This document shows, piece by piece, positions 11,957-25,992 of a stretch of 49,075 bases of DNA. Location: positions 1 through 49,075 of the forward strand of contig QZJU01000018.1 in the NCBI GenBank assembly GCA_003597955.1, read 5' to 3'. Both the position numbers and the translations under genes were made by a program. Numbering within the stretch: the first letter of the stretch is position 1; each line of letters begins with the position of its first letter. Below the pieces are notes generated by a model. It was not told the origin of the DNA, made no database searches, and was given only the letters and a program-made list of their open reading frames with translations. The DNA is from Candidatus Parcubacteria bacterium (GTDB taxonomy: Bacteria; Patescibacteriota; Patescibacteriia; PEXW01).

Positions 11957-13214
11957 CATGCCAAAATTAAAATTTTTGAAAGCCATTGAAATTCTGGATT
12001 CCCGCGGCAACCCGACCCTGCAAGTGACGGCCGAATTGTCCGACGGCAGCCGGGCCACAGCCGCGGTGCCTTCGGGGGCTTCCACCGGAAGCCACGAAGC
12101 TTTGGAATTGCGCGATGGCGGCAAGCGATTTTTGGGCCGCGGCGTTCAGCAGGCGGTAAAAAATGTGAATGAAAAACTTGCCGGGCGTTTGCTCAATAAA
12201 GAAATCAAAGATTTAAAAAAGACCGACAAAGCCATGTGCGAATTGGACGGCACAGCCAACAAAGCCAAGCTGGGTGCGAATGCTATCTTGGGCGTGTCTT
12301 TGGTTTTGGCCAAAGTTTTGAGCGTCAGCGAGAAAAAACCGTTGTATCAGTTTTTGGCCGAGCATTACGGCTTTAAACCGGATTTTTCAAAATTCCCTCG
12401 GCCGATGTTTAATGTCATCAACGGCGGCCTGCACGCGGATTCCGGTCTTTCGTTTCAGGAATTCATGCTTTTGCCTACGCAGAAAGATTTTCCCGAGGCG
12501 GTCAGGTGCGGCGCCGAAGTCTTCCAGAATCTTTTGCGTTTGCTCAAAAGCCGAGCCGCTTCGACATTGGTGGGCGACGAAGGCGGGTTTGCGCCCAAGC
12601 TGCGTTCCAATGAGGAGCCGATGCAATTACTCGCCCAGGCTATTGTGCAGGCCGGTTATGTTTTGGGTAAAGACATGGAGCTGGGCTTGGATGCGGCCTC
12701 GACCCAATTCTTAAAGCCCAATGGCATCTATTCGCTGGCATTGGAAGGCAAAGGTTTAAGCGCTGAACAGCTGGTAGCCTTATACGCGGAATGGCATGAA
12801 AAATACCACCTGCATCTGGTCGAGGATGGCTTGGCTGAAGACGATTGGGGGAATTGGGCGATGATGACTAAAACCCTGGGAAATTTAAAGATGCGCGTGG
12901 TTGGCGATGATTTATTCGTTACAGATGTAAAAAGATTGAAGCAAGGGGTTGAAAAAAAAGCGGCTAACGCGATTTTGATTAAAGTCAATCAGATTGGCAC
13001 GCTTTCCCAAACTATGGCCGCCATTAAATACGCCCGCCAGCACAAATATCAAGTGGTGATTTCGCACCGATCGGGCGAAACATGCGATACCACCATCGCG
13101 GATCTGGCCGTGGCGGTCAACGCGGATTACATCAAGGCCGGCTCGCTTTCCCGGGGCGAAAGACTGGCAAAATACAATCGATTGTTAACGATTTGGTCTG
13201 AAGAAAATGGTTAA
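11949..13214 (+). CDS. eno: Enolase
   Basis: AIEILDSRGNPTLQV; PSGASTGSHEALELRDG; NVINGGLHADSGLSFQEFMLLP; VGDEGGFAP; VISHRSGETCDTTIADLAVA. Confidence 0.97.
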   Translation: MNNMPKLKFLKAIEILDSRGNPTLQVTAELSDGSRATAAVPSGASTGSHEALELRDGGKRFLGRGVQQAVKNVNEKLAGRLLNKEIKDLKKTDKAMCELDGTANKAKLGANAILGVSLVLAKVLSVSEKKPLYQFLAEHYGFKPDFSKFPRPMFNVINGGLHADSGLSFQEFMLLPTQKDFPEAVRCGAEVFQNLLRLLKSRAASTLVGDEGGFAPKLRSNEEPMQLLAQAIVQAGYVLGKDMELGLDAASTQFLKPNGIYSLALEGKGLSAEQLVALYAEWHEKYHLHLVEDGLAEDDWGNWAMMTKTLGNLKMRVVGDDLFVTDVKRLKQGVEKKAANAILIKVNQIGTLSQTMAAIKYARQHKYQVVISHRSGETCDTTIADLAVAVNADYIKAGSLSRGERLAKYNRLLTIWSEENG

Positions 13215-14781
13215 AGGCAAATTAAAACTCAAGCCGTGTCTGCCCGTGGTCTTGGTAATCATTGACGGCTGGGGGATTAGCGCGCGCAAAGAGGGAAACG
13301 CCATTGCTTTTGCGCGAACCCCGCATTATGACCAGCTTATGAAAAAATACCCGAATACGCAATTACAAGCCGCGGGTCTGGATGTGGGTTTATCTCGGGG
13401 CCAGGACGGTAATTCGGAAGCCGGGCATTTGAACATCGGCGCCGGGCGTGTGGTTTTGCAGGACGCGGTTTACATTTCGCGGGCGATTAATGACGGGACT
13501 TTCTTCAAGAATCCGGCTTTTCTACGCGCGGTCAAGCATGTGCAAAAACATGGCTCGACCCTACATCTTATGGGCATGCTCGGCAATAGCCAGAGCGCGC
13601 ACGCCAACCCTGATCATTTATTGGCGCTTTTGACTTTTGCCAAATTAAGTCGTTTGCCCAACATTGTTCTGCACATTTTTACGGACGGACGGGATTCGCC
13701 TAGGTTTTCGGCGATTAAAATGGTTAAGCGTCTGGAAAAAGCTCTGGGCCAAGTTCGCGTCGGTTCAGTCACGGGCCGGTATTACGCCATGGACCGGGCT
13801 TTGCATTGGGATCGGATAAAAATGGTTTATGACATGCTGACTTTGGGGAAAGCGAGTTTTCATGCGCGCAATGTCGAAACCGCAATTTTACAAGCTTACA
13901 ACCGAAACGAAAGCGATGAATTTATCCCGCCCACGCTAATTTCGCCAACGGATCATCGCCGGGAATTGATTAAAGAGAATGATTCCATAATTTTTTTCAA
14001 CTTGCGCAGCGATCGTGCCAGACAATTGACTAAGGCTTTTGTGCAGAAAAAATTTCCGGGCTTTGCCCGCAAGAAAGTTTTGCGGAATTTGGTTTTTGTG
14101 GCCATGACGGATTTCGGGCCGGATTTGCCGGGCGTACTTTCGGCATATCCCAGCCGGGATGTGCCAGAGACCTTGCCCATGGCCTTGAAGGCTTTTCGGC
14201 AATTATATATTTCCGAAAGCGAAAAATACGCCCACATGACTTATTTCTTCAATGGCGGTTATGACCACCCCGTGGGCGGCGAGGATCGGGTTTCAATTTC
14301 TTCACCCAAGGTGCCGACTTACAATTTGCGGCCCGGTATGTCCACCTTGAAATTGGTTCACTATGTCAAAAAAGATTTGCGCTTTAACAAACACGACTTC
14401 ATCGCCATAAATTTTGCGGCGCCAGACATGGTGTCGCACACCGGCCATTTTCGCGCGTCCATTAAAGCCGTGGAAACCGTGGATAAGGCTTTGGGCGAAT
14501 TAAAAGCCGCAGTTTTTAAAATCCACGGAACCTTTGTTGTCACGGCTGATCACGGCAACATCGAAGAGCTGAAAAGTTTAACTTCCGGCGAGGTTGATAC
14601 CGAACACTCAAATAATCCCGTGCCGTTTATTTTGGCCGGGCAGGGCTGCCATGGGTTAAAGCTGAGAAAATTCGGCCGTTTAGCTGATATTGCCCCGACT
14701 ATTTTGGAGATAATGGATGTGCCTAAGCCTTTGGAAATGACCGGCCGGAGTTTAATAAACAATAAAAAGCATGGGACCTGA
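13207..14781 (+). CDS. gpmI: 2,3-bisphosphoglycerate-independent phosphoglycerate mutase, copy 1
   Basis: VIIDGWGIS; DGNSEAGHLNIGAGRVV; FTDGRDSPRFSA; GRYYAMDR; FNLRSDRARQLTKAF; VTADHGNIEEL. Confidence 0.93.
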   Translation: MVKGKLKLKPCLPVVLVIIDGWGISARKEGNAIAFARTPHYDQLMKKYPNTQLQAAGLDVGLSRGQDGNSEAGHLNIGAGRVVLQDAVYISRAINDGTFFKNPAFLRAVKHVQKHGSTLHLMGMLGNSQSAHANPDHLLALLTFAKLSRLPNIVLHIFTDGRDSPRFSAIKMVKRLEKALGQVRVGSVTGRYYAMDRALHWDRIKMVYDMLTLGKASFHARNVETAILQAYNRNESDEFIPPTLISPTDHRRELIKENDSIIFFNLRSDRARQLTKAFVQKKFPGFARKKVLRNLVFVAMTDFGPDLPGVLSAYPSRDVPETLPMALKAFRQLYISESEKYAHMTYFFNGGYDHPVGGEDRVSISSPKVPTYNLRPGMSTLKLVHYVKKDLRFNKHDFIAINFAAPDMVSHTGHFRASIKAVETVDKALGELKAAVFKIHGTFVVTADHGNIEELKSLTSGEVDTEHSNNPVPFILAGQGCHGLKLRKFGRLADIAPTILEIMDVPKPLEMTGRSLINNKKHGT

Positions 14782-16375
14782 AACTTTCATTCCTCGAATT
14801 CGGCCTTTAGTTATGTTGATTTTAGACGGCTGGGGCGTGGCCCCGCCTTCGAGGAGCAACCCTTTTAGCATTGCCAAGTTGCCGAATTATGAAGATCTGG
14901 TTTTGCATTACCCGGCCCTGACCCTGCAAGCCTCGGGCGAATCCGTGGGTTTGCCCTGGGGCGAAATGGGCAATTCCGAAGTCGGGCACGTGAATTTGGG
15001 CTCGGGTAAAATCGTTTATCAAAGCCTGCCCAGAATCAATCGAGCGATTGCCGACGGCAGTTTTTTTGCCAACCCGGCTTTTTTGGCGGCGATTGAAAAT
15101 GCGAAAAAGCGTAAAACCCGTTTGCACCTTATGGGTTTGGTGAGTTCCGGCGGGGTCCACAGCTTTAATGAACACGCTTATGCCTTGGTGGAATTGGCCA
15201 AACAGCAGGGCTTGAAAGAATTGTATGTTCACGCGATTTTGGATGGCCGCGACACGCCGCCCAAGAGCGCGGAAAATTTCGTTGGCAAGCTGGTCGCGCA
15301 CATGCACGAAGTGGGTCTGGGCAAGATCGCCACTTTAAGCGGCCGGTATTACGCCATGGACAGAGACAATCGTTGGGATCGGGAGGAAAAGGCCTTTCGG
15401 GCCATGGTGATGGGCCAGGCGGAGAAAAGTGGAACCGATCCTATCACCTTAATTCAGCAAAGCTACGCTTCGGGCGTGTACGACGAAGAATTTCTGCCCA
15501 CGGTGATCACGCAAGCCGATGGTTCGCCCGTGGCGACCATTCAAGACGGCGACAGCGTAATTGCTTTTAATTTCCGTCCGGATCGGATGCGCCAGATTAC
15601 CAAAGCTTTTGTTTTGCCTGGTTTTGAAAAATTTAAAAGAGGTGAGTATTTTAAAAATCTTTTTTATGTCACCATGACCGAATACGATCGAGATTTGCCC
15701 GTGACGGTCGCTTACCCGCCGGAAGAAATTACATATCCGGTAGCGAGAGTAGTTTCGGAAGCCGGACTAAAGCAAATTCACATTGCCGAAACGGAGAAAT
15801 ACGCTCATGTCACTTATTTTTACAACGGCGGGCATGAACAGGCGTATCTCAATGAAGATCACATTCTGATCCCCAGTCCGCATGTTTCCAGTTATGACCG
15901 CAAGCCGGCTATGGCAGTCCGCGAGATAACCGAACGGATTGTCAAGGAGGTTTCCAAAGGTGCTTATGATTTTTACGTGGTTAATTTTGCCAATGCGGAC
16001 ATGGTTGCGCATACGGGCAATATGCAGGCGACCATTGAATCTTTAGAGATTATCGACGAATGCTTGAAGCAGATTACCGACGCAGTCTTGTCGGTCAACG
16101 GCCAGTTGTTCATTACGGCGGACCATGGCAACGCTGAAGAGTTGGTGAATTTGCAAACCGGTTCGATTGATAAGGAGCACTCCACGAACCCCGTGCCGTT
16201 TTTAGCTGTAGCAAATTATTTAAAAGACAATTCACCCTACATCTTGCCCGGCGGGGTAGCGAGCTTGAATGTGGCTCAACCCGTGGGGATTTTGGCGGAT
16301 GTGGCCGTGACCGTTTTGGAAACCATCGGTTTGCCCGTACCGGAAGAAATGACCGGCCGGAATTTATTAATTTAA
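14771..16375 (+). CDS. gpmI: 2,3-bisphosphoglycerate-independent phosphoglycerate mutase, copy 2
   Basis: LILDGWGVAP; EMGNSEVGHVNLGSGKIVYQ; ILDGRDTPPKSA; GRYYAMDRDNRWDR; FNFRPDRMRQITKAF; ITADHGNAEELV. Confidence 0.95.
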   Translation: MGPETFIPRIRPLVMLILDGWGVAPPSRSNPFSIAKLPNYEDLVLHYPALTLQASGESVGLPWGEMGNSEVGHVNLGSGKIVYQSLPRINRAIADGSFFANPAFLAAIENAKKRKTRLHLMGLVSSGGVHSFNEHAYALVELAKQQGLKELYVHAILDGRDTPPKSAENFVGKLVAHMHEVGLGKIATLSGRYYAMDRDNRWDREEKAFRAMVMGQAEKSGTDPITLIQQSYASGVYDEEFLPTVITQADGSPVATIQDGDSVIAFNFRPDRMRQITKAFVLPGFEKFKRGEYFKNLFYVTMTEYDRDLPVTVAYPPEEITYPVARVVSEAGLKQIHIAETEKYAHVTYFYNGGHEQAYLNEDHILIPSPHVSSYDRKPAMAVREITERIVKEVSKGAYDFYVVNFANADMVAHTGNMQATIESLEIIDECLKQITDAVLSVNGQLFITADHGNAEELVNLQTGSIDKEHSTNPVPFLAVANYLKDNSPYILPGGVASLNVAQPVGILADVAVTVLETIGLPVPEEMTGRNLLI

Positions 16376-16378
16376 ACC

Positions 16379-18292
16379 ATGCAAACCCCCGCGGCTGGTT
16401 CAATAAATACGATGAATGCGCGGAAAGCAGTCCGCCGGCATCACGGCTTTTTAAAAACCCTGATCGCTTTGCCGGTCTTTTTGGGTTTTGCGGTATTTTT
16501 CTTAACCCGTCAGCCCCAGCCGACCTTTTCCTCGAATTTAGTCGCCGGCCGTCTGCCTTTGGACGCGCCCGTAGTGTTAGATTTTTCCTGGCCGGTTTCC
16601 CGGAATTTAGAATTTCGAATCAGCCCGCACATTGACGGCGAACTTAGTTTTGAGTCGGCTTGGTTGCGGGAGCACTTGGTCACGCGGGCGGTTTTTACTC
16701 CGGATTTTTCCTGGCCGGCGAATACAAATTACGAAATAACGCTGGCCAACATTAAAAACGCTATTCCCGGCATTCAAAACCCGAAAATTTACGCTTTGAA
16801 TTTTACCACCAACGAATTGGCGGAAATCAAGCAAATCACCCCGGGCTTAAGCCAGGTGATTGGTGCCGATGCTCAGTGGCAGGTTGACCTGAATCAGCCA
16901 GTTTCCCGATTTGAAGAATATCTTTTTCAGTTTGATCCGAATGTGGAGTTCCGGATTTCCAAAAAAGCCGGACAATCGGCTTATGTGATTGTTCCGCAGC
17001 AGCTTTTGGGCCAAGGGCGGAAATACACCCTGAAAATTTTTCAAATTCAAAAAAAATATGTTTTCAGCACGGACGAGATTGCCAGCCAAAGCGAACCGGT
17101 TCTGTTGGCTCAACATGCTTGGCAAGTGAAGGAGCCGCCAGGCGTGGCAAAAGTCTCGCCAACCGGTCAGAACATTGGCTTAGCCGAAAATTTGGAAATA
17201 GTATTCACGGAAAAGCTTGATTTGCAGGTTTTCTTGGAAAATGTCAGCCTTGAACCAAAATTATCGGGTAGTTGGTCCAGCGTTGACGGCAAGACTTTTT
17301 TATTTTTTCCTGAAGATCTCCGGCAAGAAACGACCTATACCGTAAAAATAAAAGCCGGCGCAAAAACGCTTGACGGCGGTTATCTGCCCGATGAAGTAGT
17401 TTATCAGTTTTCCACCATTGAGCCCGTAAAAATTTTGGAAAGTCAGCCAAAAGCCAATGCTTTGGGGGTGACGGTTGGCAGCGCTCTACGCTTTATTTTT
17501 AACCAGCCCGTGGACAAAAAAAGCGCTGAAGCGAATTTTGGCATTTCCCCAAATGTGAAAGGCGATTTTTCTTGGGCTGAAAACACTTTAATTTTCAAGC
17601 CCGCTTCGGCATTGGCATTTAACACGACCTATAATGTTGTTTTTAAAAAAGGCATTTCGGCGCCGGCCGGCTTGGCCTCCACCGAAGAACACCGCCTAAC
17701 TTTTTTAACCGAAGTATCGGTCACGCGCCTGGCCGTACCTTTTCATAGACAAGGTCATAAATTAAGCTGTGAGGTCGCGACTCTGGTTATGGCCTTAAGG
17801 TATCGTGGGTTGGATATTGGCGAACAACCATTGATCGATTTCATCGGCTTTGATCCTACGCCAAAGAAAAACGGGGTCTGGGGGGATCCCCACCGAGCTT
17901 TCGTCGGCGACATCAACGGCCAACAACCAGGCACAGGCTATGGCGTGTATTGGGAACCGATTGCCAAGGCGGCAAACCAATACCGGACGGCGCGGGCTTT
18001 TACAAAAGGCCAGCTGACGGATATCACCAATGAAGTTAAAAAAGGCAACCCGGTTATTATTTGGGGTACGGCCGGGACAGGGCGGCGCATTGATTGGAAA
18101 ACCAGGGACGGCAAAAACATCGTGGCCATCACCGGCGAACACACCCGCATCGTGATTGGTTTTGTCGGTTCGGCCAGCAATCCCAGCAAGATAATAACCT
18201 TAGATCCGCTTTACGGCGAAAAGAATTTTACCCAGTCCGCCTTTCTCGCCAATTGGGGTTTGCTGGGCAATAGCGGGGTAGTAGTGGAATAA
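16379..18292 (+). CDS. Membrane-anchored protein with Ig-like (SbsA/Big_5-type) domains and C-terminal C39-like peptidase domain
   Basis: N-terminal TM; repeated VSPTGQNIGLAENLEIVFTEKLD...TTYTVKIKAGAKTLDGGYL and SQPKANALGVTVGSALRFIFNQPVD...TTYNVVFKKGI; C-terminus VPFHRQGHKLSCEVATLVMALRYRG...EHTRIVIGFVG...ITLDPLYG. Confidence 0.75.
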   Translation: MQTPAAGSINTMNARKAVRRHHGFLKTLIALPVFLGFAVFFLTRQPQPTFSSNLVAGRLPLDAPVVLDFSWPVSRNLEFRISPHIDGELSFESAWLREHLVTRAVFTPDFSWPANTNYEITLANIKNAIPGIQNPKIYALNFTTNELAEIKQITPGLSQVIGADAQWQVDLNQPVSRFEEYLFQFDPNVEFRISKKAGQSAYVIVPQQLLGQGRKYTLKIFQIQKKYVFSTDEIASQSEPVLLAQHAWQVKEPPGVAKVSPTGQNIGLAENLEIVFTEKLDLQVFLENVSLEPKLSGSWSSVDGKTFLFFPEDLRQETTYTVKIKAGAKTLDGGYLPDEVVYQFSTIEPVKILESQPKANALGVTVGSALRFIFNQPVDKKSAEANFGISPNVKGDFSWAENTLIFKPASALAFNTTYNVVFKKGISAPAGLASTEEHRLTFLTEVSVTRLAVPFHRQGHKLSCEVATLVMALRYRGLDIGEQPLIDFIGFDPTPKKNGVWGDPHRAFVGDINGQQPGTGYGVYWEPIAKAANQYRTARAFTKGQLTDITNEVKKGNPVIIWGTAGTGRRIDWKTRDGKNIVAITGEHTRIVIGFVGSASNPSKIITLDPLYGEKNFTQSAFLANWGLLGNSGVVVE

Positions 18293-18385: not shown

Positions 18386-20059
18386 ATGACGACGAAAAAA
18401 TTGTTAACTCTAAAAGAAGCCTCGGATTTATTGGGTTTAAAGCCGGTTACCTTAAGAAAATGGGACCGCGAAGGCAAGCTGCTGGCGATCCGAATCGGAA
18501 CGCGTAAGGATCGTCGGTACAGGCAGGGGGATTTGCGGGTTTTTCTAAACACTTCACAGCAGACACAAAAGCCGAAATGGCAGGAGTATATTCGGAGCAA
18601 TGTTAGCTACCACATTGTTGACCATTGCTTATTTGGAATTTCCAAAGGCTTGGAAGAGTTAATTGGTTTTGGCATCACCAATCATTTGACTTATTTTGTT
18701 AATACCACACTTTATTGGCATTACGATCAGTCGGAATTATTTAAGGTTGGCAAGAGGTTAGTGGCATACTTCAGTCGGCAAAAAAAACTAACGGATTTTC
18801 TGCGGGGCTGGGAAAAACACCAAAAAAATCTTATGGATTTTTTGCACGGTCAAAGGCAAGAGCTAATGTTTAGTTATTCTGTCAAACAACATTTGCGGAC
18901 TTACACGAGTTTCAACGAGTTGGTCAAAACCTGGAATGCATACTCAATGGTAATTGACGCGTTGGACGAAGCCTTGATGGTTGACATTGCCAAACATATT
19001 AAATTGCATTTAAAAAAATTTCTCCCCGAGGCGGAACTTAGTAAAGCATTCGCGAGCTGCTATACGATTTTAACAGCGCCGGAAATAGAGTCACCCATCA
19101 ATACCGAAAAGCGAGATATCGCCGCCATTGCCTTAAAACTTCGAAACCATAAATTGGTAAGAAATAGTAAAACTTTTGATCTTGAAGTTCAGAAGATTTT
19201 AAATAAGTATTGGTGGATTTACGCTGGCTGGGGCCGAGTGGACATGAAAAACATAGAAAAGCAAATTGTAGACACTTTGGACAAACAATTAAAATCTCCA
19301 CAAAAGATCGTTAAGGGTTTAAGCCAGAAGAATTACGGTTTAAGTTTGCGAAAACTTAACAGGCTTTATAATTTTAAGGCCAATCGAAATTTACAGCATT
19401 TGTTAAAACTTTACCAAATTTTTGCCGTTTATCACGATAAACGCAAAGAAATGCAAATGCGATATTCCCAGTGGGAATACGGATATTTTGATATTTTAGC
19501 CAAAATTTTTAAAACCCCGGTCAAGCTATTAGAGTGGTCAGATAGCCAGGAAATCATAAGTTTGCTAAAAACTAAACGATTAGCGGTTTCCGAAAGCGAA
19601 CTAAACCGTCGTTCGGGCAATTTTTTCTTGCTCTTAAGAGATGGTAAGTTGGGCCCGAAGCTAAGCGGTAAAAAAGCTCGAAAAGCCTACGCGGAAAATT
19701 ATACGCAGGTTTTGGACGACATTGCCGATATCCAGGGCATAAGCGCTTCCACCGGCAAGGTTAGCGGCACCGCTTATGTCGCGATTTCCGCGCAAAAAGC
19801 CTTGCAGATTCCCGCCGGGCAAATTCTAGTGACCGGCATGACTACGCCGGATTTTATTCCCGCCATGAAAAAAGCCAAGGCAATCGTTACGGACGAAGGC
19901 GGCATGACTTGCCACGCGGCCATAGTGTCAAGGGAATTAAACATTCCTTGCATTGTCGGCACGAAATATGCCACCAAAGTAATCGCCACCGGGGATAATA
20001 TTGAAGTGGCGGCGAATCACGGAGTGGTGAGGATGTTGGAGAAATCTTCAAAGAGGTAA
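18386..20059 (+). CDS. MerR/excisionase-type HTH fused to helical region and PEP-utilizing phosphohistidine (swivel) domain
   Basis: N-terminus LTLKEASDLLGLKPVTLRKWDREGKLLAIRIGTRKDRRYRQGDLRVFL (HTH). C-terminus ASTGKVSGTAYV...GQILVTGMTTPDFIPAMKKAKAIVTDEGGMTCHAAIVSRELNIPCIVGTKYATKVI. Confidence 0.85.
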   Translation: MTTKKLLTLKEASDLLGLKPVTLRKWDREGKLLAIRIGTRKDRRYRQGDLRVFLNTSQQTQKPKWQEYIRSNVSYHIVDHCLFGISKGLEELIGFGITNHLTYFVNTTLYWHYDQSELFKVGKRLVAYFSRQKKLTDFLRGWEKHQKNLMDFLHGQRQELMFSYSVKQHLRTYTSFNELVKTWNAYSMVIDALDEALMVDIAKHIKLHLKKFLPEAELSKAFASCYTILTAPEIESPINTEKRDIAAIALKLRNHKLVRNSKTFDLEVQKILNKYWWIYAGWGRVDMKNIEKQIVDTLDKQLKSPQKIVKGLSQKNYGLSLRKLNRLYNFKANRNLQHLLKLYQIFAVYHDKRKEMQMRYSQWEYGYFDILAKIFKTPVKLLEWSDSQEIISLLKTKRLAVSESELNRRSGNFFLLLRDGKLGPKLSGKKARKAYAENYTQVLDDIADIQGISASTGKVSGTAYVAISAQKALQIPAGQILVTGMTTPDFIPAMKKAKAIVTDEGGMTCHAAIVSRELNIPCIVGTKYATKVIATGDNIEVAANHGVVRMLEKSSKR

Positions 20060-20121
20060 ATAAAACAATTGACTTAACATTATTCAAGTGCAAGACTTAA
20101 TTTAATTAAACAAGAAAAAAT

Positions 20122-21201
20122 ATGAACGAAAGAGAAGATTTTCATTATCTTGCTAATGAAGCAAGACGTGAAAAACAAGAACAGGCAACGTCAGTTATTA
20201 ATTTTATGGCCGAACAGGGTTTGCCTTCTCAAGAGGTAGATCCACGGGAAATGTTAAGCGGAAACGAAGCAGTTGAGACTCGCTTTGAACCCCTAAGAAA
20301 AAAAGACCCGCCAAACATCATTTACGGTGTTCCACATGCCGGTGAATATGCCCCCAAGGAACTTTACGAAAAGATGACCGATGAGGGTCGGGAAACTTTA
20401 ACCTTGATTGACCCGGGCACTAATCGAATATTTCGGAGCGACAAGATTGCATCTGTCGAAACTAAAATGTCGCGCTTTATCGTGGATCCGAATCGTGCTC
20501 CGGATTTTACTCCTGACAACCAAACCGTTGCTGGAAAGCCACCCGGCAAGATTCTTTGGAAGGAGGGCGTGAGATTCGGGCCAATGTACCAACCTGGCCA
20601 GGAACCGAATGAAAACGAGATTCAAGAATTGGCTGAAAAATATTATCTGCCTTATTACAATGCCATGATGTCTGGCATTGGCTCTTTGGCTGATAGAAGA
20701 GAATCGCAAAAAGAAAGGATTCTTGTGATTGATGGGCATTCTTTCCCTATTACTGAAAATATGGAAGCCTACTTTAAACATTATCAAATTGCCGAACCGG
20801 AAAAAATGCCAATGTTTATATTAGGCACTCGTGACGGCGAGGCTTGTGATGCTGATATTTTGGAAGCATTTGCTGAGGCCTTGGAGGAAAATTTTGAGAA
20901 TCTGCCTTTTGCCCAGAAGGAATTAATTAAAGCTTCAATTAGGGGAAAAATTGTCGGTACAAATGAGTACTTAAAAGGCGTGCATAATGTGAAATTTTAT
21001 GGCGCTCGGGAGCAAGGTATCAATGCCATACAGGTGGAGTGTAATGAGTCAGCCTATATTGACAGAGAAGAAATTCCTGGCAAATCCGGCTATCAAAGAT
21101 GGGCAAGTCTAAAATACAATGACGAGAAAATGAACATCCTGCAAGGTCTTATTGAAAGATCAGCTTTGGCGGTAAACAACTTATTAAAAGCTAAAAGTTA
21201 G
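20122..21201 (+). CDS. N-formylglutamate amidohydrolase-like protein
   Basis: IIYGVPHAGEYAPKEL, SRFIVDPNRAPDF, LVIDGHSFP, GVHNVKFYGAREQGINAIQVECNESAYID resemble the FGase family pattern. Confidence 0.65.
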   Translation: MNEREDFHYLANEARREKQEQATSVINFMAEQGLPSQEVDPREMLSGNEAVETRFEPLRKKDPPNIIYGVPHAGEYAPKELYEKMTDEGRETLTLIDPGTNRIFRSDKIASVETKMSRFIVDPNRAPDFTPDNQTVAGKPPGKILWKEGVRFGPMYQPGQEPNENEIQELAEKYYLPYYNAMMSGIGSLADRRESQKERILVIDGHSFPITENMEAYFKHYQIAEPEKMPMFILGTRDGEACDADILEAFAEALEENFENLPFAQKELIKASIRGKIVGTNEYLKGVHNVKFYGAREQGINAIQVECNESAYIDREEIPGKSGYQRWASLKYNDEKMNILQGLIERSALAVNNLLKAKS

Positions 21202-21206
21202 ATTAT

Positions 21207-22058
21207 ATGAAGACAAATAAAATTCTTGGCAAGAATATCGAGAAATTTAATAAATTAGGCAAGGTAAAAATCGCTTTTGGTTTAAAGGAACCGGACGAGG
21301 AAATTTTAAAGAGCCTTAAGCAGAGCAAGGAATTCGCGGACATTACTTTAGTCGGTCCGCAGGCAATTGAAAAAGTGAAGGGTTTTAAATTAGTTATTGA
21401 TGCACTTCCAGAAGAGCGACTCGCGAATCTCCTGGCCAAAGACGAGGTAGAAGGCATTATCCGCGGGACGATTGATGATTTTAAGACTTATGAGGCTTAT
21501 CAAAAATTAACCAATGAGGCATACACTTTTTCACCGGCAGTTATTGAGGATTCATTCGGCCGACAATTTTTGCTAACCGCTGCCAGCAATCCTGATGATT
21601 GGGATAAAGAACAACGTTTGCGGCATGCCGTTCAGAACGGCGAATTTTTAAAGGCATGGGGCGTGGTCCCAAGAATCGCGGTCTTTACCGGCGAAAGGCA
21701 CGAAACTTATCCGCGGCGCAAGCACATTCGCGATGGCGTCATTGGAATTTTGAATAAAACCTACGAAGATGCTGAATGGATCGTGGCGGAGCTTAAAAAA
21801 CAAGGGTATGAAGCGAAAAACTGGGCAATTGATTTAAATCCGGCTGTCGCTGAGGGCTACAATGTAATTTGTCCGGTTAATGGAATGGTCGGGAATCAGA
21901 TTTTTCGAGTCGTGCTTTTTTGCGGTGGAAAGGTTTTGACGGCCACAAGATTGGGTTTATCCAGAATGTATGAAGACAATAGCCAAACTGAAAAGGATTT
22001 TGTTTTTCATGTGAAATGGCTGAATGCTTTGATAAACAAAAAGAAGTTTAAACCTTAA
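21207..22058 (+). CDS. Phosphate acetyl/butyryltransferase-fold protein (MtxX-like?)
   Basis: VKIAFGLKEPDEEILKSLKQ...DITLVGP; C-terminal LNPAVAEGYNVICPVNGMVGNQIFRVVLFCGGKVLTATRLGLSRMYEDNSQTEKDFVFHVKWL; weak family-level recognition. Confidence 0.45.
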   Translation: MKTNKILGKNIEKFNKLGKVKIAFGLKEPDEEILKSLKQSKEFADITLVGPQAIEKVKGFKLVIDALPEERLANLLAKDEVEGIIRGTIDDFKTYEAYQKLTNEAYTFSPAVIEDSFGRQFLLTAASNPDDWDKEQRLRHAVQNGEFLKAWGVVPRIAVFTGERHETYPRRKHIRDGVIGILNKTYEDAEWIVAELKKQGYEAKNWAIDLNPAVAEGYNVICPVNGMVGNQIFRVVLFCGGKVLTATRLGLSRMYEDNSQTEKDFVFHVKWLNALINKKKFKP

Positions 22059-22074
22059 CGCTAAAGCTTCGGCG

Positions 22075-23613
22075 ATGACCAAACAAAAACTAAACCAGAT
22101 CTTAAAATACGGTCCTTGGGTTGAAGAAGAAGGTCCGGCCTCTTTCTGCATTATCGATCATTGCAAAACTTGTTATATCGACTCTATTTACGCGCACAAA
22201 AAGAAATTTTTTAAAACCTGCATTTATTCGGTTTTTAATAGATATGCGCGGGAATGGACGTCGCGGGAAGATGCAGAGAAATTGTTAGTTTGGTTGCTGG
22301 AGAAATTAAAAAAGAATTCAAGTTTTTTAAAAACTAAAGACAATTTTTTCAACCGAATTGTTAAACAGACGCGAGTTTTTTCAAATCGCATTCAGCAGCT
22401 GAATTTTCACGCCTTGAGCGACGCTGAGCTATTAAAAATTTTTAAAGAGGCTTCAGACCTCAACAAAAGACAATACGGATACTCTTTAATAACCGAGTCA
22501 ACGGATTTATTGACCGAGCGGGATTACATTAAATTCCTTGAAAAAGCTTCCATCAAGGAAACCCCGGAAATTGTTCGAATATTAAGTTTGCCACCCAGAC
22601 GAACTTTTTTTGATGAATTTGAGATGCGGAGCGCTGAGTTGGTTATTGCTTTAAAGCGTAAATATAAAAACCAAATACCTAAAAATTTTAGAGATATCTC
22701 GGATTTAAAGATTAAAGCCGGCATCACTCGACTGCGAAATGAATTTTATTGGCTTGATAATAGTTTTAAAATCGCCAAATCTTTGAAGACAAATGAGATT
22801 TACGAAAAAATAAAAGTTAAATTCAAAGATTTTCCATTAAAAAAGATTCTGCATGAGAAGAAAAGACTGCAACAGAAACCAGGAGTAATAAAATTCGGGC
22901 ACAGAAAAATACATCAAAAATATCAAATTCCCCCAAACGCTAAAAGACTTTTCTTGCTGATTCAATATCTGACGGCTCTGCAAGACCGGCGAAAAGAATT
23001 GGTTTTGCGCTTTGGCTCGAGTTTAGGCAAAGTTTTGGACGAGCTTTCATTGCGGACTCAGATACCGCGAAAGGAATTAGAGATGTATCTGCAAGAAGAG
23101 ATAGTTGAGCTTTTGACTAAAAAAACAAAAATTTCGAAGGGTCTGATTCGGAAAAGACAGAAAACCGTTTTTGTTGGATATTATAAAGGTAGACACACGG
23201 CGGCAGAGTGTTTTTCTGGCAAGGCAGCGGAGCAAATCTTTCAGCGTTTAATGCGCGAGCGGGAAAAATTGCCCCAGGGCCAACTGAACGGCTTTGTAGC
23301 TTCAGTCGGCAAGCGAGGGCGCTTTGTGATCGGTAAAGTTAAAATAATTTTTGATCCTCAAGGCAGAACCATAGGCAGTGATGAAATTTTAGTGACTGGG
23401 ATGACGCGCACGGAATTCGTTGGGCTAATGAAAAAAGCTAAAGCTGTCATTACCAACGAAGGCGGTATCACCACCCACGCTGCAATCGTTTCTCGGGAGT
23501 TAGGCATCCCTTGCATTATTGGTACCCGCTATGCAACTGAAATTTTGAAAAACGGCGATCAAATTAAAATGGACATGCGCACAGGTTTAATTCAAAAAAA
23601 TGAGAGACGGTAA
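22075..23613 (+). CDS. Helical domain + C-terminal PEP-utilizing phosphohistidine (swivel) domain protein 2
   Basis: C-terminus GSDEILVTGMTRTEFVGLMKKAKAVITNEGGITTHAAIVSRELGIPCIIGTRYATEIL; central LQDRRKELVLRF motif shared with the paralogs. Confidence 0.85.
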   Translation: MTKQKLNQILKYGPWVEEEGPASFCIIDHCKTCYIDSIYAHKKKFFKTCIYSVFNRYAREWTSREDAEKLLVWLLEKLKKNSSFLKTKDNFFNRIVKQTRVFSNRIQQLNFHALSDAELLKIFKEASDLNKRQYGYSLITESTDLLTERDYIKFLEKASIKETPEIVRILSLPPRRTFFDEFEMRSAELVIALKRKYKNQIPKNFRDISDLKIKAGITRLRNEFYWLDNSFKIAKSLKTNEIYEKIKVKFKDFPLKKILHEKKRLQQKPGVIKFGHRKIHQKYQIPPNAKRLFLLIQYLTALQDRRKELVLRFGSSLGKVLDELSLRTQIPRKELEMYLQEEIVELLTKKTKISKGLIRKRQKTVFVGYYKGRHTAAECFSGKAAEQIFQRLMREREKLPQGQLNGFVASVGKRGRFVIGKVKIIFDPQGRTIGSDEILVTGMTRTEFVGLMKKAKAVITNEGGITTHAAIVSRELGIPCIIGTRYATEILKNGDQIKMDMRTGLIQKNERR

Positions 23614-25057
23614 TCAAAAATCCTACAGTCTACTGGTAAAAAATTTTTTAAATCAGGATTATTATATCCAAGCTTTTAACGCCGTGCCTTTTTTGTTTAG
23701 CGCTACGGGCTTGAGCGGTTTTTACATGAAAAAGGTTTTGGGGTACGGGTATACAAATTTTTTATATCGGGTGAAACAGGGCTATGGCGAAGTCTTTTAT
23801 TTATATTCCGATTTTCCGCGTTTATGGAAGCTCATCAAAAAACAGACGACCCGGAAAAAGAATTACTTAAAAATCCTCAAGCAGATTTACGAAAAAACCT
23901 ATCAACAGCAATTAAAATTTTACCGTTCGATTTCCGCTGAATCATTGAGACGGGCGGATGATGCTAAACTGTTAGAAATTTTAAAGCAGGGGATTTACGC
24001 CCAGCGCGACTCAGTAGGCATCGGGCACGCGATTGAACCGATCGGAATGTGTTTGGAAGAGGAATTTCGGAATCGGCTGCTAAATGAAATTCCTGACCCC
24101 AAGGAATTTAAGCGCTTTTATTCAACACTTTTAGCGCCCAGTTCGCCTTCCTTTGTCGCCGAGGAAGAGCAGGAACTGCAAAAAATTTTAAAAAGCCCAA
24201 AAGCCAAACGCCGGCGGTTGCTGGCTTTGCACGCCAAAAAGTATTATTGGCTCCGCGGTACTTTTGCGGGCTCGCAAAAAGCGGATGTGAAATTTTTTCA
24301 AAAAAGGCTAGCAAAGCTGGATCCTAAACCCCTGATCCGGAATCAGGTGGCAAAAAACCGGCTGATTAAAAAGTTGGGCTTAAGCAAAAACATTCGATCA
24401 GAAATTAGAACTATAGATTTTTTAACAATTTGGCAGGATGAACGCAAGAAAAATATGATGATTTCTTTTACAAACACGGATTTAATCCTGAACGAGGTTG
24501 CTCGTCGCGTTGGCATCCCTTTGGTTTTCTTACGCTACTTGAACGCCTGGCGGGTTTTGGAAATGCGATCTCTGCGGGAGATTCGCGATATGAAAACGGA
24601 ATTGAAAACAAGATACCAAGGCGTTTTTATTTTGGTTTCTGCCAACACCGAAAAAGTCCTGACTGGAAAAGCTTATAAAGTTTTGGAAAAAACCTTGTTA
24701 AAAACAAAAATCAAAAAGAGAAATCAAGACATTGAAATCCACGGCGTCACAGCAAACGGCGGAACGGTTATTGGACGGGTAAGAGTTTGTATGCAGCTTT
24801 CCACAATCGGCAAAGTCAAGCCGGGCGAAGTTTTAGTGACTTCCATGACTCGGCCGGAATTTATGCCCGCGGTTAAAAAGGCCTCTGCGATTGTCACGGA
24901 CGAAGGCGGCATTACCTGCCATGCAGCCATAGTAGCGAGAGAGTTGAATATCCCTGCGGTTATCGGTACCCGCATTGCCACCAAGGTTTTGAAAGATGGT
25001 ATGCTGGTTGAAGTTAAGGCTAATCACGGTGTTGTAAAAATTTTAAAGGCCAAATGA
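23600..25057 (+). CDS. Helical domain + C-terminal PEP-utilizing phosphohistidine (swivel) domain protein 3
   Basis: C-terminus KPGEVLVTSMTRPEFMPAVKKASAIVTDEGGITCHAAIVARELNIPAVIGTRIATKVL; central WQDERKKNMMISF motif. Confidence 0.85.
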   Translation: MRDGNQKSYSLLVKNFLNQDYYIQAFNAVPFLFSATGLSGFYMKKVLGYGYTNFLYRVKQGYGEVFYLYSDFPRLWKLIKKQTTRKKNYLKILKQIYEKTYQQQLKFYRSISAESLRRADDAKLLEILKQGIYAQRDSVGIGHAIEPIGMCLEEEFRNRLLNEIPDPKEFKRFYSTLLAPSSPSFVAEEEQELQKILKSPKAKRRRLLALHAKKYYWLRGTFAGSQKADVKFFQKRLAKLDPKPLIRNQVAKNRLIKKLGLSKNIRSEIRTIDFLTIWQDERKKNMMISFTNTDLILNEVARRVGIPLVFLRYLNAWRVLEMRSLREIRDMKTELKTRYQGVFILVSANTEKVLTGKAYKVLEKTLLKTKIKKRNQDIEIHGVTANGGTVIGRVRVCMQLSTIGKVKPGEVLVTSMTRPEFMPAVKKASAIVTDEGGITCHAAIVARELNIPAVIGTRIATKVLKDGMLVEVKANHGVVKILKAK

Positions 25058-25992
25058 TGTTTATTAGGGACTTTACTGCGCTTTCCAAAAAAGACACTTC
25101 CATTGCCGGCGGCAAGGGCGCTTCTTTGGGTGAAATGACCCAAGTCGGAATTCCGGTACCGCCAGGCTTTGTTATTCTAGCCCAGGCTTTTGAAGCTTTT
25201 GAGCAAGAAGCAAAACTTGATAAAAAAATCCCCAAACTTCTGCAGGCCGTTAAACCGACAAACCCAAAGTCTTTAGATCTAGCAGCCAAGAGGATTTCCA
25301 AGCTAATTTTAAGCTCAAAAATGTCAATGGTCTTAACTGCCCAGATTCTTGCCGGCTTTAAAAAGTTGAGATCAGCGCAAGTTGCGGTCAGGAGCTCGGC
25401 AACAGCCGAAGATTCCAGCAGCGCTTCTTGGGCGGGAGAACTGGAAAGTTATCTGAATGTCACCCAAAAAGATTTGTTGGCCTCGGTTAAAAAATGTTGG
25501 GCCTCGCTTTTCACCCCTCGCGCGATTTTTTACCGTTTTGAAAAAAGGCTGAATCGCTCTAAAGTTTCAGTTGCCGTAGTGGTTCAAAAAATGATTCAAT
25601 CCGAAGTCTCGGGTATTGCTTTCACGGTTCATCCGGTCAGTAAAAACCGAAGGCAGATGGTTATTGAATCCGGTTATGGTTTGGGCGAGGCTGTAGTTGG
25701 CGGCCGGATTACGCCCGATACCCACGTGGTTGAAAAGCGCCAGTTGCGAATTGTTGATAAAAATATCAGCAGTCAGAATTTAATGATCGTTAGAGCTTCT
25801 AAAGGCAATCTTGAAAAAGTGGTTCCCGCGAACCTTCGCAATAAGCAGAAAATTCAGGATAAGCAGATCCTCGAGTTGGCAAGACTTTGTTTGCAAATTG
25901 AAAAGCACTACCACAAGCCCCAAGACATTGAATGGGCTTATGAAAAACGCAAATTTTTCGTGGTTCAATCCCGTCCGATTACCACCTTATAG
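25054..25992 (+). CDS. Stand-alone PEP synthase/PPDK N-terminal (ATP-grasp) domain protein
   Basis: IAGGKGASLGEMTQVGIPVPPGFVI; VAVRSSATAEDSSSASWAGELESYLNV; SGIAFTVHPVS; ESGYGLGEAVVGGRITPD; PQDIEWAYEKRKFFVVQSRPITTL then stop. Confidence 0.92.
   Translation: MMFIRDFTALSKKDTSIAGGKGASLGEMTQVGIPVPPGFVILAQAFEAFEQEAKLDKKIPKLLQAVKPTNPKSLDLAAKRISKLILSSKMSMVLTAQILAGFKKLRSAQVAVRSSATAEDSSSASWAGELESYLNVTQKDLLASVKKCWASLFTPRAIFYRFEKRLNRSKVSVAVVVQKMIQSEVSGIAFTVHPVSKNRRQMVIESGYGLGEAVVGGRITPDTHVVEKRQLRIVDKNISSQNLMIVRASKGNLEKVVPANLRNKQKIQDKQILELARLCLQIEKHYHKPQDIEWAYEKRKFFVVQSRPITTL

Follow-up and report, generated by a model that had tools for sequence, protein, structure and literature searches.

The window (the whole stretch of DNA that was analysed) comprises 49,075 nucleotides of contig QZJU01000018.1, assembly GCA_003597955.1, from Candidatus Parcubacteria bacterium, a member of the Patescibacteriota. 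Between positions 18,386 and 25,992 it contains a run of six genes, four of which encode the separate parts of a putative dikinase: a stand-alone ATP-grasp protein (designated A) and three proteins (designated R-H) in which a predicted substrate domain (R) precedes a phosphohistidine swivel domain (H). The genes lie on the forward strand with short gaps in the order R-H protein 1, N-formylglutamate-amidohydrolase-like (FGase-like) protein, MtxX-like protein, R-H protein 2, R-H protein 3 and A, and the last three overlap end to end, as an earlier note on this DNA had stated, by 14 nt (R-H 2 and R-H 3) and 4 nt (R-H 3 and A). Protein A (25054-25992, 312 aa) ends in QSRPITTL and has PPDK_N as its only significant Pfam match (PF01326, E 3e-99, residues 17-311), in agreement with the note's description of it as the ATP-grasp domain of PPDK and phosphoenolpyruvate (PEP) synthase standing alone. 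R-H protein 1 (18386-20059, 557 aa) consists of an N-terminal MerR/HTH_17 helix-turn-helix (HTH) domain at about residues 6-55 (E 5.8e-8), an R domain and a swivel domain with the sequence GGMTCHAAI (PF00391, E 2.5e-25). R-H protein 2 (22075-23613, 512 aa) has an R domain and a swivel with GGITTHAAI (PF00391, E 1.8e-21), and its match to NCBIfam PRK06241 reaches into R (residues 334-508). R-H protein 3 (23600-25057, 485 aa) has R at about residues 1-366 and a C-terminal swivel with His441 in GGITCHAAI (PF00391, E 1.1e-23). Apart from the HTH of R-H protein 1, the PEP-utilizers swivel is the only significant Pfam match in the three carriers, and the Pfam scan gave no match to the PEP/pyruvate TIM barrel (PF02896) in these proteins or in A. 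The earlier claim of three barrel-less proteins (genes starting at 18386, 22075 and 23600) that end in a swivel with its catalytic His retained (TCHAAI, TTHAAI and TCHAAI, respectively) is thus borne out. A pseudogene or an assembly break was ruled out by the intact frames, the overlapping genes and the recurrence of the arrangement in tens of genomes.

The Gly-Gly pair and the His of the swivel are kept in 58 of 58 aligned related R-H sequences and none of the 128 R-H genes counted in clusters lacks the His, so the motif pattern is not due to chance. The regions before the swivels had been described as divergent and helical. They do precede the swivels, but they are homologous to each other (phmmer E 1.7e-6 for R-H proteins 1 and 2, and 2.6e-4 for R-H proteins 2 and 3) and, on the evidence of structure prediction, to the R domain with which rifampin phosphotransferase (RPH) binds its substrate. 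The AlphaFold model of R-H protein 3, built from a 58-row alignment, has a pLDDT of 90.6, and when it was compared with 350,542 PDB chains using Foldseek the six best matches were all RPH and spanned R and H (best match 5fbt, E 3.2e-13, 460 columns, TM 0.50); matches beyond RPH cover mainly the swivel. A profile made from R only also matched the R domain of RPH-type proteins in a profile-profile comparison (probability 95.8, E 6.8e-9, 228 columns), and the NCBIfam scan of the R regions returned single weak matches only. Two size classes of R-H protein were observed, one of about 430-550 aa, nearly always with Thr two residues before the His (PpsA-like), and one of about 345-390 aa, often with Leu at that position. 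A PSRP/PpsR-type regulator (PF03618), which would be expected to act on the Thr preceding the His, is absent from the window's genome.

A separate ATP-grasp chain accompanied by a substrate-plus-swivel chain is known from the two-component dikinases HpeHI, CreHI, PpsAB and PasAB (PMC12167813, PMC7500099), and the earlier statement that no system of such layout had been described does not hold. HpeHI is the hydroxyphenylethanone dikinase of Rhodococcus, in which HpeI is a crystallised stand-alone ATP-grasp protein and HpeH an RPH-like R-H protein with an essential His (PMC12167813, PMC7500099); the known two-component cases act on phenols or aniline. The window's genes resemble this type in having A as a separate chain and, as the second chain, an RPH-like substrate domain with a C-terminal swivel. 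They differ in the number of partners, with 3 to about 10 R-H proteins to a single A in the window and its relatives, whereas the known cases are one-to-one, and in the residue two before the swivel His, which is Met in HpeH and the homologues examined (PMC12167813) but Thr, as in PpsA, in the three proteins of the window and in 89 of the larger R-H genes. The split layout is therefore already known, and the apparent novelty is one A with many R-H partners, no description of which was found in the literature searched (subscription papers and preprints were mostly outside its scope).

Conserved co-occurrence in related genomes, which the earlier note had proposed as a check, was found in two sets of genomes. 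The first set contained 38 relatives, and stand-alone R-H genes were present in 10 of the 10 with a stand-alone A and in at most 3 of the 28 without (Fisher p 6e-7), two of these three being fragments. For the second set 193 genomes were drawn independently from the phylum, and A was present in 19 of them, told apart from PpsA by a wide score gap (at least 479 bits versus at most 378 bits). When 17 new A genomes were compared with 29 control genomes, classed by hand from frame lengths, R-H-sized swivel genes were found in 17/17 and 5/29, respectively (p 1.5e-8). The number of R-H genes per genome reaches 10 in G187 and G092, 9 in G057 and G031, and 8 in G104 and G077, and is 3 in G206 and 2 in G156 and G172. 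They are frequently arranged in tandem, in arrays of up to about 10 genes, with an exact 4-nt overlap in 19 of 46 close pairs, and genomes with 8-10 R-H genes carry a single A. The gene run of the window is a small example of an array system that occurs widely.

The genome of the window (0.99 Mb, 98.5 % complete) also encodes one full-length PpsA of 813 aa on another contig (G000:C2:108974 onward), which holds the sole PF02896 match of that genome, and no PPDK_N or swivel domains were found in it beyond the gene run and this PpsA. It could be supposed from this that the R-H proteins are charged by PpsA, or by a PEP-dependent enzyme, and that the stand-alone A is a relic, and a full-length PpsA as their true partner had been named in the earlier note as an outcome that would overturn its proposal. 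Such a role is possible in the window's genome. It is contradicted in seven relatives with 2-10 R-H genes (G031, G104, G187, G077, G206, G156 and G172; 88-100 % complete, mostly multi-contig drafts), in which no PPDK_N other than the stand-alone A and no PEP-utilizers_C barrel (PF02896, the barrel of PpsA, PPDK and enzyme I) was found, and in which a full-length PpsA therefore cannot be the R-H partner. A further genome, G024, was excluded from this list owing to the presence of PpsA fragments. In addition, genomes with PpsA only are mostly without R-H genes, and A overlaps an R-H gene and retains all of the catalytic residues tested (Gly19-Gly20-Lys21, Arg113, Glu283, Gln305 and Arg307, which are invariant across the A clade). 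Charging by PpsA with A as a relic is accordingly the least credible of the explanations considered, and is given almost no weight.

Natural single-chain forms were found within the A clade in a public genome scan. L085 is an A-R-H protein of 810 aa, which is also matched by the R region of R-H protein 1, L082 is an A-R-H fusion of 853 aa followed by three further R-H genes, and L083 is an A-R-H-R-H fusion of 1311 aa. The folded model of L085 is of lower confidence (pLDDT 79) and matches best to full-length RPH, and to HpeI for the A part. The two R-H modules of L083 fall in the R-H tree with two separate genes, the first with L082_11658 (95/97) and the second with L082_14385 (100/99). One ATP-grasp domain in L083 thus precedes two modules that are separate genes in L082, which gives direct sequence support for sharing. 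This arrangement bears on the alternative that A serves only the adjoining R-H protein 3 as a one-to-one dikinase, the other two R-H proteins being idle or otherwise partnered. All characterised two-component dikinases are indeed one-to-one (PMC12167813, PMC7500099) and only the gene at 23600-25057 overlaps that of A, but every paralogue retains the swivel His and Gly-Gly, a single A occurs alongside 8-10 R-H genes, and L083 joins one A to two R-H modules; a strictly paired A is consequently considered very unlikely. Averaged over pairs of sequences, identity is 57 % in A, 51 % in H and 15.5 % in R, a pattern of conservation and divergence that would be expected if R changes its ligand while A and H must continue to fit together.

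It is considered probable, on these grounds, that the gene run encodes a split, shared-kinase member of the RPH-like dikinases, in which A charges the three R-H proteins and each of these has its own acceptor. By analogy with RPH and HpeHI, in which the His attacks the ATP beta phosphate and the swivel then carries the phosphate to the ligand of R (PMC4844700, PMC12167813), A (25054-25992) would bind ATP, and the swivel His would attack the beta phosphate, with inorganic phosphate leaving and AMP remaining. The three R-H proteins would be phosphorylated by the single A one after another, each on its swivel His, and each charged swivel would turn back to its own R domain and pass the phosphate to the ligand bound there, most likely a different small molecule for each R domain. 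A and H would be conserved because of their mutual fit, and R would be free to diverge because it sets the specificity. The earlier note had proposed an interchangeable phosphorelay. One A that charges several carriers with different targets is well supported in comparative terms by the co-occurrence, the seven A-only genomes and the fusions, while "phosphorelay" is probably the wrong word, because the R domains look like the substrate pockets of small-molecule phosphotransferases and not like relay partners.

Several observations weigh against the shared-kinase interpretation. Cross-talk with the full PpsA is possible in the window's genome, and the five control genomes without A that scored in the second set hold one R-H-sized swivel protein each. 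A sequence profile of R only found no RPH when it was compared with PDB sequences, and the relation of R to RPH is therefore distant, resting on the fold and the profile-profile comparison. The catalytic residues of RPH are Arg666, Glu667 and Lys670 (PMC4844700), and this Arg-Glu-x-x-Lys motif is not conserved as such in the R domains, where it aligns with Q-D-x-R-K (H-D-x-R-K in R-H protein 1). An acid and a base are thus kept but rearranged relative to RPH, and the Asp, Arg and Lys of R possibly have an equivalent role.

The remaining alternative is a regulatory system, in which A charges the R-H proteins but it is their phosphohistidine state, and not the making of a product, that controls DNA or protein binding, the HTH domain of the protein at 18386-20059 being the output. 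The HTH domain strengthens this reading for R-H protein 1, as does the parallel of PspR of Haloferax mediterranei, an RPH-like protein with a non-classical role that is reported to be a DNA-binding repressor (PMC10948481). PspR differs in being a single-chain haloarchaeal protein with its own ATP-binding domain. Against regulation, the HTH domain occurs in only 1 of the 58 R-H family members, and the R domains are 15 % identical and homologous to a drug-binding domain. The genes near the R-H clusters can be read in more than one way. Divergent histidine-phosphatase superfamily genes are enriched near the swivels (7 of 21 matches fall in a portion of the sequence put at about 2.3 % by a hand estimate from listed positions; p 3e-7) and could reset phosphohistidine, but the HAD, HD and nucleoside-metabolism genes nearby are also suggestive of small-molecule phosphates, and the neighbouring phosphatases fit either product turnover or phosphohistidine reset. 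An HAD hydrolase is fused to an R-H protein in G027 (L044:13033-15150, 705 aa), and unfused members of that HAD family are found next to R-H clusters in G052, G187 and G198 (loci L181, L187 and L175); HD proteins are also among the neighbours. Regulation is regarded as unlikely, and small-molecule acceptors are favoured because of the RPH-type pocket and the HAD, HD and histidine-phosphatase neighbours.

The nearest solved structures to A are archaeal PpsA, RPH and HpeI, and stand-alone A frames in relatives are 305-398 aa long. In the ATP-grasp tree the stand-alone and fused patescibacterial A domains form one clade of 29 rows with 100/100 support among PpsA-type domains. Because the fused forms are nested among the stand-alone ones (98/91), the split appears to be older than the fusions in this clade. 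RPH forms are placed elsewhere in the ATP-grasp trees, and HpeI, which is a long branch, lies in a different part of the PpsA radiation, paired with the stand-alone A of a haloarchaeon (97/77). Common descent of the window's A with HpeI was not found, A lying in the 100/100 clade without HpeI, and since the A clade, HpeI and RPH sit apart, two-component dikinases seem to have arisen more than once. In a haloarchaeal (Halobellus) locus, L148:6025-9044, a 636-aa swivel protein is followed by the 358-aa stand-alone ATP-grasp that groups with HpeI. Two A genes encoding an identical protein were observed in G036 (L064:8533-9477 and L065:8071-9015), in opposite orientation and approximately 18 kb apart. 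At L046:7602-9539 in G031 the A gene is enlarged (386 aa), and after it come a gene with an NYN domain and a repeat of the C-terminus of A, an insertion- or duplication-like arrangement.

By domain content and tree position, the gene run belongs neither to RPH nor to PpsA and lies outside the HpeI clade. It shares with RPH (PDB 5FBT/5HV1) the same three domain types, a C-terminal swivel His and a homologous R, but A and R-H are encoded by separate genes here while RPH is one chain (fused forms occur in the relatives L082, L083 and L085), Arg-Glu-x-x-Lys is replaced by Asp-x-Arg-Lys, and A falls outside the RPH clades. PpsA contains the closest relatives of the A domain and also has Thr before its active swivel His; it differs from the window's proteins in its PEP/pyruvate TIM barrel, and the swivel is here at the C-terminus of a different protein. 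In function the proposed system would be like the PEP:sugar phosphotransferase system (PTS), in which a general energy-coupling protein serves many specificity proteins through phosphohistidine, except that the donor would be an ATP-grasp protein with ATP and not PEP. No EI, HPr or EII homologues were found in the window's cluster by the Pfam scan, and the seven genomes have no PEP-utilizers_C barrel. A wider reading, which we hold somewhat less firmly than the shared kinase itself but still favour, is an ATP-driven hub-and-spoke system. In it one diffusible A would charge as many as about ten dedicated R-H modules with an acceptor apiece, and would form with them a main phosphotransfer network in some bacteria with ultra-small genomes that have no PEP synthase or other PEP-utilizers_C enzyme. 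The origin of the system, from a PpsA-type ATP-grasp, would be separate from those of HpeHI and RPH. Few metabolic pathways have been recognised in Patescibacteria with small genomes, many of which nevertheless devote up to about ten genes to the R-H family. If one kinase serves many acceptors, the substrate of each R-H protein could be found by one assay, which would make it possible to test directly which compounds are taken up, trapped or modified by these bacteria. The PTS principle, in which exchangeable specificity proteins draw on a general donor, would also gain a second, ATP-based example, and a ready set of modular phosphotransferases would become available.

The two other genes of the run encode the FGase-like protein (20122-21201, forward strand; PF05013, E 2.6e-32) and a MtxX/Mmp4-like protein (21207-22058, forward strand; TIGR03270, E 2.9e-21, under the cut-off of the family). 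A homologue of the former lies beside the R-H cluster of G031 (L047:1249-2316, 25 % identity, E 2e-30), and MtxX-like homologues occur in the clusters of G031 (E 5e-28) and G206 (E 6.7e-12), so that both genes recur together in G031. Their products may belong to the pathway of one of the acceptors. Directly upstream of the run, positions 16379-18292 encode a 637-aa protein with bacterial Ig-like domains (Big_5 and Big_10) and a C39-like peptidase domain, and before it are two adjoining, overlapping genes for cofactor-independent phosphoglycerate mutase (13207-14781 and 14771-16375), both with the active-site serine motif GNSE. Another gene of this type is just upstream of the R-H cluster in G035 (L050:3632-5212). 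Short stand-alone riboflavin kinases (PF01687) were observed beside R-H or A genes in four genomes (L061:7293-7637, L046:5002-5355, L173:3119-3469 and L183:11832-12311), two of which also have lumazine/riboflavin synthase genes; with an occurrence in four genomes only, the riboflavin genes were set aside as a substrate clue. The A gene adjoins genes for S-adenosylhomocysteine hydrolase, purine phosphorylase and phosphoribosyltransferase at L178:14861-19526, and for S-adenosylhomocysteine hydrolase and a PfkB kinase at L180:11918-15076.

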